From Hyphomonadaceae bacterium BRH_c29 (GTDB lineage Bacteria > Pseudomonadota > Alphaproteobacteria > Caulobacterales > Hyphomonadaceae), in contig LADW01000057.1 of the NCBI GenBank assembly GCA_000961695.1, positions 1 to 64,000 on the forward strand: a stretch of 64,000 nucleotides of DNA, in the 5' to 3' direction. This document shows, in pieces, positions 24,526 to 29,400 of this stretch (position 1 is its first letter; each line of letters starts with the position of its first letter). Below the pieces are notes generated by a model. That model searched no databases. It worked only from the letters and a program-made list of their open reading frames with translations, and was not told the DNA's origin. The translations under genes were made by a program, and so were the position numbers.

Positions 24526-24746
24526 TGTCAGGAGTCCTTCGACTGAGGGACGGAGGTCGAGCCGGGGTGTTCGAGGGATTGCTGCCCCCACCCGGACTTA
24601 ACGCCCGCCCGAGTTGATACCCTCAGGGCGATAAAAGGGAACATAGGGCCGCAGATTGCCCGTTTCCAGCGGATTCTACGGTGACGTGGCGGTAGTGGAT
24701 CACAGGTGTGTTGCCTTTCCCCACGTCAACTGGTATCGGCGCGGCC

Positions 24747-24797
24747 ATGTTCGTGAGTGCATTTCCCCTTTCCTGCTGCGGCTGTTGTTGCCGCTGA
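24747..24797 (+). CDS. Putative Cys-rich leader peptide of cysS (MFVSAFPLSCCGCCCR*)
   Basis: ATG TTC GTG AGT GCA TTT CCC CTT TCC TGC TGC GGC TGT TGT TGC CGC TGA, 78 nt upstream of cysS; five Cys codons in a seven-codon stretch. Confidence 0.75.
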   Translation: MFVSAFPLSCCGCCCR

Positions 24798-24855
24798 GGC
24801 CACAACGCGCCATTAGGGCTGGCAACAGTTGAGCCGCCCGGCACACTCACGAACA
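24748..24855 (+). promoter_or_regulatory. Putative cysS leader RNA with long-range pairing (attenuator-like)
   Basis: 12-bp perfect complement TGTTCGTGAGTG (24748-24759) / CACTCACGAACA (24844-24855); Cys-codon region GCGGCT..TGTTGCC (24778-24792) complementary to GGCAACA....AGCCGC (24821-24837). Confidence 0.65.
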
Positions 24856-24874: not shown

Positions 24875-26260
24875 ATGACCATTCGCCTTTACGATACCGC
24901 TGCGCGCGAAAAGCGCGTTTTCACGCCTCAGGACCCGACACGCGTGACGATGTATGTCTGCGGCCCGACGGTCTATAATTACGCTCATATCGGCAATGCC
25001 CGCCCGCCCATCGTGTTCGATGTGCTGCGGCGCCTGCTGATCCGGACTTATGGCGAACACGCCGTCGTCTACGCGCGCAACATCACGGACATTGAAGACA
25101 AGATCATCAAGGCCTCATTGGAGAGCGGCGAGCCGATCTCAGCGATCACGAAGAAATTCGCCGACATCTACAATGCCGACACCACTGCGCTGAACGTGCT
25201 GGCGCCGACCATTGAGCCGTGGGCCACCGCGCATGTGGACGAAATGATCGAGATGATCGGCAAACTGGTGCGCAAGGGCTATGCCTATGCTGGCAAGGAA
25301 GGCGTCTGGTTCTCGGTCAAGCAGATGCCGGATTATGGCAAGCTGTCCGGCCGCAAGCTGGAAGACAATGAAGCCGGCGCCCGCGTCGAAGTCGACGCCG
25401 ACAAGCGCGACCCGGCCGACTTTGCTCTCTGGAAATTCGCCAAGCCCGGCGAGCCGGAAGACGCGATCTGGGACAGCCCGTGGGGCAGGGGCCGGCCCGG
25501 CTGGCATATCGAATGCTCTGCCATGGCGGCCAAGCACCTCGGCAAGACGATCGACATTCATGGCGGCGGCATCGACCTGCAATTCCCGCATCACGAGAAC
25601 GAAATCGCCCAGTCAGAGTGCGCGCATGGGGAAGTGATGGCCAATTACTGGCTGCACAATGGCTTCCTCGACATGGGCGGCGAGAAGATGTCGAAATCGC
25701 TCGGCAATGTCGTGCTGGTGCATGAGTTGCTGCAGGCGTGGAACGGCGAAGTCCTGCGGTTTGCCATGCTGAGCGGGCACTATCGCGCGCCGCTCGACTG
25801 GACCGAAGACCTGCTGAAACAGGCCAAGACGACGCTGGACCGGATCTATGGCGCGCTGCGCCGGGTGTGGGACGCAGATCACGGCGAGGCCCGTGACACG
25901 GGCGTCCTGCGCGCGCTGCAGGATGATCTCAATACGCCGGAAGCGCTGGCGGAACTGTCGCGTCTGGCCGGTGAAGCGAATACAGCGGCGGACCAGAAAG
26001 ACACTGTGGCGATGGCCAATGCGAAGGCGAACCTGCTGGCCGCCGGCAAGCTGCTCGGCCTCCTGACGCTGACGCCGAAGGACTGGGAACAGGGCGGCGA
26101 CGAAGACGGCAATGCCCGCATCGACGCGCTGGTCCAGGCCCGCATCGATGCCCGTGCGGCAAAAGACTGGGCCGAGGCCGACCGGATCCGCAATGAACTC
26201 GCCGCCGAGGGCATCGAGATCATGGACGGGGCGGGCGGCTCGACCTGGCGCCGCGTCTGA
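24875..26260 (+). CDS. cysS: Cysteine--tRNA ligase
   Basis: CGPTVYNYAHIGNARPPIVFD, GRPGWHIECSAMA, KMSKSLGN. Confidence 0.98.
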   Translation: MTIRLYDTAAREKRVFTPQDPTRVTMYVCGPTVYNYAHIGNARPPIVFDVLRRLLIRTYGEHAVVYARNITDIEDKIIKASLESGEPISAITKKFADIYNADTTALNVLAPTIEPWATAHVDEMIEMIGKLVRKGYAYAGKEGVWFSVKQMPDYGKLSGRKLEDNEAGARVEVDADKRDPADFALWKFAKPGEPEDAIWDSPWGRGRPGWHIECSAMAAKHLGKTIDIHGGGIDLQFPHHENEIAQSECAHGEVMANYWLHNGFLDMGGEKMSKSLGNVVLVHELLQAWNGEVLRFAMLSGHYRAPLDWTEDLLKQAKTTLDRIYGALRRVWDADHGEARDTGVLRALQDDLNTPEALAELSRLAGEANTAADQKDTVAMANAKANLLAAGKLLGLLTLTPKDWEQGGDEDGNARIDALVQARIDARAAKDWAEADRIRNELAAEGIEIMDGAGGSTWRRV

Positions 26261-26321
26261 TACGGTTTCCTGCCCTTTCGCCGCCTTGCGCTGGCGGAAG
26301 GGCGGGGCCATCTTCCGCGCG

Positions 26322-26780
26322 ATGAGCGAGCTTTACCACAACCGCATCCTGGAACTGGCCGCCGGCATCCCGCATGTCGGGCGGCTGGCGGATGCCGAAG
26401 GTTCGGTGACCAAGGTCTCTCGTGTCTGCGGATCGATCGTACATGTTGACCTGAAGCTCGATGAGGCTGGGGAAACTGTAACAGATATTGCAGTTGACCC
26501 GCAGGCCTGCGCGCTTGGACAGGCCTCGGCCTCGATCCTGGCGGAGCACGCCATCGGCGCATCTGTGACAGAGATCATCGCGGCGCGCGACGCGCTGAAA
26601 GCCATGCTGAAAGAGGGCGGCGTCCCGCCGGAAGGCCGGTTCTGGGAACTGCGCCACCTTCAGCCCGTCGCCGACTATGCCCCCCGCCATGCCTCGACCC
26701 TGCTTGCCTTTGAGGCTGCCGTCGCCGCCATCGAAGAGGCGCTCACAAGGCGCGCCGCCGCACATGCCAGCGCCCCGTAA
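26322..26780 (+). CDS. NifU/IscU-like iron-sulfur cluster scaffold family protein
   Basis: MSELYHNRILELAAGIPHVGRL, CGSIVHVDLKLDE, ACALGQASASILAEH; start corrected from 26112. Confidence 0.85.
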   Translation: MSELYHNRILELAAGIPHVGRLADAEGSVTKVSRVCGSIVHVDLKLDEAGETVTDIAVDPQACALGQASASILAEHAIGASVTEIIAARDALKAMLKEGGVPPEGRFWELRHLQPVADYAPRHASTLLAFEAAVAAIEEALTRRAAAHASAP

Positions 26781-27078
26781 AAGCCTCCGCCGACAGGCGG
26801 CTTATGCGCTCCTCTGGGTCTACAAACATGGGCCGAGCCAGGTGTTGTGGGCCTTTGGCGCGCGGTGTCAGCATACGCCAACCTGTAGTGAGTACGGGGC
26901 AGAATGCGTTGCGCGCTTTGGCTGGTGGCCGGGCTTCTGGATGACGTTGGCGCGGTTCCTGCGCTGCCGGCCGGGCGGCACGATGGGGTGCGATCCTGCG
27001 CCGGAGATAAAGCCTGATGTGCCGGTCTGGCAGCCTTGGCGATATGGCGACTGGCGAGGCCCGCGCGGGGAGAGTTGA
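26764..27078 (+). CDS. yidD: Membrane protein insertion efficiency factor YidD
   Basis: CQHTPTCSEYGAECVARFG...RFLRCRPGGTMGCDP. Confidence 0.92.
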   Translation: MPAPRKSLRRQAAYALLWVYKHGPSQVLWAFGARCQHTPTCSEYGAECVARFGWWPGFWMTLARFLRCRPGGTMGCDPAPEIKPDVPVWQPWRYGDWRGPRGES

Positions 27079-27109
27079 AAAACGCCCCGGCCCGTGACAT
27101 ATCGCGGCC

Positions 27110-27163
27110 ATGGATTTTCGTCTGATCACCGCTCTGACCACACGAACCCGCCGGGGTGCCTGA
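27110..27163 (+). CDS. Putative Thr-rich leader peptide of thrS (MDFRLITALTTRTRRGA*)
   Basis: ATG GAT TTT CGT CTG ATC ACC GCT CTG ACC ACA CGA ACC CGC CGG GGT GCC TGA; four Thr codons within ten, first ORF in the 357-nt yidD-thrS gap. Confidence 0.72.
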   Translation: MDFRLITALTTRTRRGA

Positions 27164-27288
27164 CGCGCCTTCGGCCCGCACCCTCGTGCGCGCCGCGCCT
27201 CACGCACCCGCCAAAAGCCCTCAAATGAGCCGCCGGACACCGTGTGAAACACAATATAAACACCGTGTAAGGGCCATATAAGGCTCAT
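27154..27288 (+). promoter_or_regulatory. Structured thrS 5' leader with alternative pairings
   Basis: GGGTGC (27154-27159) can pair with GCACCC at 27178-27183 or 27204-27209; downstream hairpin ATGAGCC/GGCTCAT (27225-27231/27282-27288) encloses two ACACCGTGT copies. Confidence 0.5.
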
Positions 27289-27435
27289 CAGACCTCCGGA
27301 TTTCGCCCGACTGCAGCCCGCCCGCTTTGAGGGTGGGAAAAGCGGTAAAGACGCGCTAAGCAAACCGCCGCATAAGGCCATCCGGATCCCCTGAATTCAC
27401 GCCCCTCTGGGCGACCCCGCCAAAGAAGAAGACCG

Positions 27436-29400
27436 ATGATCAAAGTAACGCTGCCCGACGGCTCTGAACGAGACTATGCCGACGGCGCCTCGCCGCTGGA
27501 CGTGGCCGAGAGCATTTCGAAATCCCTGGCCAAGAAGGCCCTCGCCGCCAAAGTGAATGGCGAGCTGTGGGACCTTGTCCGCCCCCTCGACGGGGACGCA
27601 AACGTCGCCATCATCACCGACCGCGACCCGGAAGGCCTGGAACTGATCCGCCACGACGCCGCCCACGTACTGGCGCAGGCGGTGCAAGAACTTTACCCCG
27701 ACGCGCAGGTCACGATTGGCCCGGTGATCGATGACGGCTTCTATTACGACTTCGCCCGCGAGGAACCGTTCTCGTCCGACGATTTCGAAAAGATCGAAGC
27801 GAAGATGCGCCAGATCGTCGATGCCGATTATCCCATTGTCCGCGAGGTCTGGGACAAGGACGAAGCCATCGCGATGTTCAAGAAGATCGGGGAGGACTAC
27901 AAGGCCCAGATCATCGACGACATCATCCCGCCGGGCGAGGCGATCACGATCTATCGCCAGGGCGACTGGTTCGACCTCTGCCGCGGGCCGCACCTGCCCT
28001 CGACGGGCAAACTGCCCAAGGCGTTCAAGCTGATGAAGCTGGCCGGCGCCTATTGGCGCGGCGACTCGAAGAACGAGATGCTTCAGCGCATGTACGGCAC
28101 GGCCTGGGCGAACGAGAAAGACCTCAACGCCCATCTCGTGCGTCTTGAAGAGGCTGAGAAGCGCGACCACCGCAAACTCGGCCAGCAGCTGGACCTGTTC
28201 CACTTGCAGCCCGAAGCGCAAGGCTCTGTCTTCTGGCACCCGAAAGGCTTCATGATCTGGCGCCAGCTGGAAGCCTATATCCGCCGCGCGCAGGACGAGG
28301 ACGGCTATGTCGAGGTGAAGACGCCGCAACTGCTCGATTCGGTGTTCTGGGAAAAATCCGGCCACTGGGACAAGTTCCGCGAGAACATGTTCGTGGTGCC
28401 GGACTTCATTCCGAATACGGATGAGGACGAAGTGCGCATTCCGGCCGAGACGAGCCTGATGGCGCTGAAGCCGATGAACTGCCCGGCTCACGTGCAGATA
28501 TTCAAGAGCGACCAGCGGTCCTACCGGGATCTGCCGATCCGCATGGCGGAATTCGGCTGCTGTCACCGCAACGAGGCCCATGGCGCGCTGCACGGCCTGA
28601 TGCGCGTGCGTCAGATGACGCAGGATGATGCGCACATCTTCTGCCGCGAAGACCAGATCGGCGACGAGACGCTGCGTTTCCTGAAACTGTTCTCGCGCGT
28701 CTACAATGATTTCGGCCTGACGGAGATTTCCTACAAGCTGGCGACGCGCCCGGAACAGCGCGGCGGTACGGATGAGAACTGGGACCGCGCCGAGAAAGCG
28801 CTGGCCGATGCGCTGAACGAAGCGGGTCTCCCCTTCGACTATGCCGAAGGGGAGGGCGCGTTCTATGGCCCGAAACTCGAATTCCACCTGACGGATGCCA
28901 TCGGGCGGACGTGGCAGTGCGGCACGTTCCAGCTGGACTATGTCCTGCCCGAACGTCTGGATGCAGAATATACGGGATCGGACGGCGCCAAGCATCGCCC
29001 GGTCATGCTGCACCGGGCTGTGTTCGGCACGTTCGAGCGGTTCATGGGCATCCTGATCGAGAACTATGCCGGGGCGTTCCCGATGTGGCTCTCGCCGGTT
29101 CAGGTCGTCGTGGCCGCCATCACGGACTCGGCGAACGATTATGCCGAGGAAGCTGCCGCGGTGCTGCGCAAGGCAGGCCTGCGCGTCGAGACGGATCTTC
29201 GCAACGAGAAGATCAATTACAAGGTGCGCGAGCATTCGCTGCAGAAAGTGCCGGTGATTGCCGTGGTCGGTGGGCGTGAAGCCGAAGACCGCACGCTGGC
29301 GCTGCGCCGGCTTGGCTCCAACGGCCAGCAGATGATCACGCTGGACGAGGCCAAAGTGGCGCTCGCGCTGGAAGGCCTCGCGCCGGACCTGAAAGCCTGA
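27436..29400 (+). CDS. thrS: Threonine--tRNA ligase
   Basis: TGS domain, [63 protein letters not shown]. Confidence 0.98.

Follow-up and report, generated by a model that had tools for sequence, protein, structure and literature searches.

The cysS gene of Hyphomonas is very probably preceded by a ribosome-mediated, Cys-tRNA-responsive regulatory leader, as read from its sequence and its conservation in the genus. Among 37 sampled Hyphomonas genomes, 36 include the sequence upstream of cysS, and 34 of these 36 loci have an intact ATG frame there, exactly 16 codons long and closing with a run of Cys codons; the mean identity of residues 2-12 between species is 22%, codons 14 and 15 are invariably Cys, and the leader always adjoins cysS, whose product charges tRNA-Cys. 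It is this combination of conservation, low peptide identity around two invariant codons and constant tie to cysS that makes a cysteine-sensing leader well supported.

The leader ORF and its conservation in Hyphomonas

In the window, by which we mean the whole stretch of 64,000 nucleotides that was analyzed and that comes from a Hyphomonas genome, with H. beringensis and Hyphomonas sp. as its named relatives, the leader ORF occupies positions 24747..24797 of the + strand. Its letters, ATG TTC GTG AGT GCA TTT CCC CTT TCC TGC TGC GGC TGT TGT TGC CGC TGA, encode MFVSAFPLSCCGCCCR*, with Cys at codons 10, 11, 13, 14 and 15 of 16. The distance from the leader start to the ATG of cysS (24875..26260, + strand; cysteinyl-tRNA synthetase, 461 aa, with the Pfam domains tRNA-synt_1e at E 6.5e-124, DALR_2 and CysS_C) is 128 nt. 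Position and frame are exactly those given in an earlier note on this DNA, and the letters bear out the series of Cys codons listed there, TGC TGC (GGC) TGT TGT TGC. The accompanying remark that TGT should be rare in such a GC-rich genome agrees with the six + strand genes of the window, in which Cys is encoded 17 times by TGC and 4 times by TGT. The pattern TGTTGYTGYYGYTRA, which comprises the Cys codons and the stop, has one match in the whole of this genome, at cysS, and the search with this pattern revealed no further Cys-leader genes there.

The earlier note had also suggested a comparison of cysS upstream regions from relatives. This comparison was run, and it shows that the frame, the 16-codon length and the cysteines at 14 and 15 are kept and that the rest has diverged, as in the further Hyphomonas peptides MFVPASVLCRPCCCCR, MLDVRFALCPACCCCR, MKTTRFPCPSACRCCC, MKLFRTLLALPKGCCC and MSRNAFAYSACRSCCC. 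A loss of the frame or of the Cys codons in close relatives, named in the note as an outcome that would speak against its reading, is thus not what the genus shows. Codons 14 and 15 (TGT TGC in the window, 24786..24791, + strand), the predicted stall site, specify Cys in 32/32 distinct intact leaders; codon 14 is always TGT, codon 15 is TGC in 28 cases and TGT in 5, and codon 16 specifies Cys or Arg. Additional in-frame Cys codons are found at positions 9-13, and the Cys content ranges from 3 to 6 of 16 residues, with a mean of 4.7. TGC and TGT are exchanged synonymously at codons 13, 15 and 16, and the stop codon varies between TGA, TAA and TAG, always in frame. Two loci depart from the pattern, both in incomplete genomes: L116 (G092) is without a leader at cysS and carries the box motif described below on another contig, and L117 (G093) has the frame with TGC changed to TGA at codon 11. 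These departures could be due to loss or assembly error.

The presence of a Cys-rich 16-codon ORF before Hyphomonas cysS is far beyond chance expectation. In a strict test, 300-nt upstream regions were searched for an ORF with at least three Cys among its last four codons. The test was passed by 32/36 Hyphomonas upstream regions, every time with an ORF of exactly 16 codons, and by 12 of 20,000 simulated regions, none of them with an ORF of 16 codons. Applied to the reverse strand it gave 0 hits, and applied to 129 control cysS loci it gave 0/76 for distant loci and 0/53 for others of the order.

Codons 14-15 hardly vary at the nucleotide level, with TGT throughout at codon 14, and they pair in a predicted hairpin (P1, see below). 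Both findings would also suit a non-coding element, in which the TGTTGYTGY tract is an RNA hairpin or a protein site that merely resembles Cys codons. This seems very improbable to us, given that a start codon, a length of 16 codons, an open frame with a varying in-frame stop and the extra Cys codons at 9-13 are all kept, and that unrelated sister lineages hold other Cys-rich mini-ORFs at the same place. Harder still to credit is a small Cys-rich product that acts in trans, for example by binding metal. Leader peptides can work in trans, as S. meliloti peTrpL does (PMC7298713), but in Hyphomonas only the terminal Cys codons are kept in an otherwise strongly diverged peptide, and the ORF is always tied to cysS.

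Promoter-like element, RNA structure and possible routes of control

Upstream of the leader, a -35-like hexamer TTGCCT (genus consensus TTGGCT; 24711..24716, + strand) begins 36 nt before the leader ATG, and 17 nt after it follows an extended -10-like element, TGGTATCGG (24731..24739, + strand). Among 34 aligned leaders, the T at -35 is invariant, TTG occupies -36 to -34 in most, and the -10-like element has T at -13 in 30/34, A at -12 in 27/34 and TG at -16/-15 in 27/34. The pair, TTGGC or TTGCC and TGnTA at a spacing of 17 nt, is thus nearly fixed at -36 and -13 from the ATG, with a shift by 1 nt in the three clade B leaders. A sigma-70 promoter scan of the window gave no match. By ordinary promoter geometry, a promoter-like pair at this near-fixed distance would make transcription begin on the leader ATG or no more than about 1-2 nt away, so that the leader mRNA is probably leaderless. 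A Shine-Dalgarno sequence is not recognizable in most leaders, L022 being an exception, and alphaproteobacteria do use leaderless mRNAs, 375 of which have been described in Caulobacter (PMC4117421). The reading of the ORF as a leader peptide, put forward in the earlier note, stands, with a probable leaderless start that had been missed.

The leader stop lies in the loop of a hairpin, P1 (24784..24806, + strand), predicted by MFE and alifold, in which the Cys codons (24784-24788, 24790-24792) pair with a post-stop CAAC segment (24798-24800, 24802-24806). P1 is predicted in most Hyphomonas leaders. Its covariation across 26 sequences was no better than in shuffles, in a test that is weak because in the 3' arm the rows of clade D are out of alignment and the clade A pairing register lies 3 nt away, and that had little covariation information to draw on since the P1 core is invariant. 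Overlapping the 3' arm of P1, the alignment reveals a conserved box after the leader stop, CAACGCGCCATTAGGGCTG in the window (24803..24821, + strand) and ...GGGCCATAGGGCTG or ...GTGCCCATTAGGGCAT in other clades. It reads CAACNCGCCATTAGGGCTG in most Hyphomonas clades, and CATTAGGGCTG was found in 24/42 genus genomes, mostly once and at cysS. A search of the region against Rfam 15 at permissive thresholds gave no match, to the T-box riboswitch or any other family.

Together, these features suggest a model in which transcription would begin at or next to the leader ATG and ribosomes would load on the leaderless mini-ORF. With Cys-tRNA fully charged, the ribosome would pass the Cys codons to the stop and then leave. 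When charged Cys-tRNA is scarce, it would stall at codons 13-15, hold P1 open and leave the conserved box after the stop free, and cysS expression would rise. What the sequences show is the frame, its conservation, its absence from the controls, its tie to cysS and the promoter-like spacing; from these we infer where transcription starts, that the frame is translated, that ribosomes stall on it, and in which direction and by which mode cysS is controlled. 

For the step from stalling to expression, several routes have to be weighed. In the window's clade, premature Rho-dependent termination in a C-rich, G-poor stretch would be the most likely one, at a probability somewhat short of even. The last 45 nt before cysS have a C content of 0.36 and a G content of 0.21, versus 0.31 and 0.25 in 53 other cysS loci of the order, a composition consistent with termination by Rho.

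Classical attenuation of transcription at an intrinsic terminator, the mode of trpL and the one suggested for the uORFC-8-2 leaders discussed below, appears rather doubtful as the general route. Its support comes from clade D: here U-rich sequence comes after a GCCC-loop-GGGC hairpin, and this terminator-like hairpin is broken by an alternative cruciform, which is favored when a ribosome is modeled at Cys14; for this clade the predicted folds make the layout of a classical attenuator plausible. A terminator scan detected hairpin and U-rich tract in 4/35 leaders, all of clade D (L017, L019, L021, L027), and L020 has both below the scan threshold. A U-run terminator is absent from the other 30/35 leaders, and a scan of the window found no hairpin with U-run, which argues against this route outside clade D.

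Translational attenuation, in which the cysS start would be hidden by RNA of the leader or downstream of it until a stalled ribosome exposes it, is unlikely in our view. In favor of it, the region of the cysS start becomes more accessible, by over 0.05, when the ribosome stalls in 8/34 modeled leaders, and in the window the 5' end of the leader can form a 12-bp pairing with -31 to -20 of cysS (P0, see below). Against it, modeling of cysS start sequestration in three ribosome states gave no consistent change in accessibility: the mean unpaired value was 0.63 with the ribosome stalled versus 0.59 at the stop, the change was 0.00 in the window and of opposite sign in 3 leaders, and P0 is not common to all clades. 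The proposal of ribosome-mediated attenuation in the earlier note accordingly divides in two. The cysteine-sensing leader peptide is borne out by its conservation in the genus; the attenuation step is not, in that the window has no U-run terminator and masking of the cysS start is not consistent.

The long-range pairing P0 deserves separate mention. In the window it is a perfect 12-bp inverted repeat between the first leader codons (24748..24759, + strand) and a segment 20-31 nt upstream of the cysS ATG (24844..24855, + strand), and its duplex energy was matched by 1/200 shuffles. A 6-bp form, whose two arms both differ in sequence between A and E/F, occurs in clade A (TGTTCG/CGAACA) and in clades E and F (ATGTCG/CGACAT); in the other clades P0 is not shared at this position. 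When 3' regions were swapped between clades, A, E and F had the longest complementarity with their own partner, but the energies were not uniformly best, and for this reason we do not claim P0 as a general feature. It is conceivable, at quite a low probability, that the leaderless 5' end pairs with the stretch before cysS and that the fate of the cysS mRNA depends on whether ribosomes occupy the mini-ORF, in place of a terminator. If so, the leader would be an attenuator that works without a terminator and is centered on a leaderless AUG.

Neighborhood of cysS and folE

Downstream of cysS, the same strand carries, within 24875-29400, an ORF with a NifU-like N-terminal domain (26112..26780, + strand; Pfam NifU_N, E 9.9e-11), whose true start lies inside the ORF, and then the genes for YidD and ThrS. 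Going by strand and spacing, the NifU_N ORF is possibly co-transcribed with cysS, and leader control may reach genes beyond cysS. A possible implication of this neighbor is a link between cysteine sensing and Fe-S assembly.

On the other side, a strikingly conserved non-coding element lies upstream of the divergent folE gene (start about 24528), at 24541-24630 on the minus strand of the window. It consists of GGGCGGGCGTTAAG(T/A)CCGG, an apical hairpin that varies in length from 0 to about 40 nt and (C/T)CGGCTCGACCnnCGnCCC, and is present in 62 fetched loci that span several families and genera of the order. With two helices connected through invariant internal loops, it is similar to the THF-II riboswitch (folE motif), for which reports exist only from Rhizobiales (PMC6800512). 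In the nucleotides of its loops, however, it seems to deviate from THF-II, and it matched no Rfam 15 family; it could represent either a variant of THF-II or a new class related to it.

Relation to other cysteine leaders

Outside Hyphomonas, a sister genus (g4) has different mini-ORFs, led by a Shine-Dalgarno sequence, at some of its cysS genes (MPMRVICCVCICG, MVFAAYRSCCRCC), and one genome from another family of the order has MKHKPLFFIHFICC at cysS. In a sample of Rhodobacteraceae (L248-L275), most cysS genes are preceded by short leaders of 11-15 residues with mixed Cys and Ile codons (CIICCI patterns), for example MNQSICIIICCITC and MKSICIICCIIPC; Cys leaders at cysS thus recur in the class. 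Most of the Rhodobacteraceae leaders have TTG near -35/-36 and TA near -12/-13 from the ATG, the same spacing as in Hyphomonas, and from these motifs they also look leaderless. A different conserved Cys-containing mini-ORF, MTCRCCRKNTTES(L/P)A, was seen upstream of cysS in two genomes of one family of the class (L218, L227). The Hyphomonadaceae, to which Hyphomonas belongs, were formerly classed in Rhodobacterales.

The closest published counterpart is the uORFC-8-2 motif of Brewer et al. 2021, with 145 examples upstream of cysS in Rhodobacterales (PMC8632094). Its uORF begins with AUG and has two Cys codons in tandem, as a rule codons 14 and 15, for which UGC is the dominant choice. The motif has two stems, with the Cys codons in the first, and every example carries a U-run at its 3' end; ribosome-mediated attenuation was proposed (PMC8632094). 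The suggestion in the earlier note that no alphaproteobacterial cysS leader peptide of this kind had been described is wrong, as the kind is already known from uORFC-8-2 (PMC8632094). Both are AUG mini-ORFs at alphaproteobacterial cysS with tandem Cys codons at 14 and 15 (32/32 distinct intact Hyphomonas leaders). A hairpin over the Cys codons, P1, is predicted in most Hyphomonas leaders, with covariation no better than in shuffles. In contrast, codon 14 is always UGU in Hyphomonas and codon 15 mostly UGC, the window and most Hyphomonas clades are without the U-run, and peptide and conserved box, CAACNCGCCATTAGGGCTG after the stop in Hyphomonas, differ. Because gene, class and codon positions agree and the U-run and UGC dominance do not, we call the Hyphomonas form a variant of the uORFC-8-2-type leader and not a member. 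Cys-sensing cysS leaders would thereby extend beyond Rhodobacterales, with an exact length of 16 codons fixed across Hyphomonas.

In S. meliloti trpL (rnTrpL), an attenuator leader from another alphaproteobacterium, the RNA begins with the ATG, as is predicted for Hyphomonas; this leaderless RNA encodes a 14-aa peptide with Trp codons before the trpE(G) operon, and transcription attenuation with a released sRNA has been shown experimentally (PMC7298713). With trpL-type attenuators the Hyphomonas leaders share the richness in codons for the relevant amino acid. Mutually exclusive antiterminator and terminator structures are not seen in the window and are plausible in clade D only.

By analogy, the Hyphomonas form would work most like the leaderless polycysteine sORFs of mycobacteria, which were predicted by Seliverstov et al. 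2005 (PMC1262725) and which, according to papers that cite Canestrari et al. 2020, exert Cys-responsive control of the downstream gene. They are likewise short and apparently leaderless, with contiguous Cys codons near the stop and no clear intrinsic terminator; they precede cysteine biosynthesis operons, whereas the Hyphomonas leader precedes cysS, and they belong to a different phylum, with no sequence relation seen. The Hyphomonas leaders and most of the sampled Rhodobacteraceae leaders, probably carried on mRNAs that start at the ATG, parallel these mycobacterial ORFs, and offer in a culturable alphaproteobacterium a system for studying the control of a synthetase gene by a leaderless mini-ORF that has no visible terminator.
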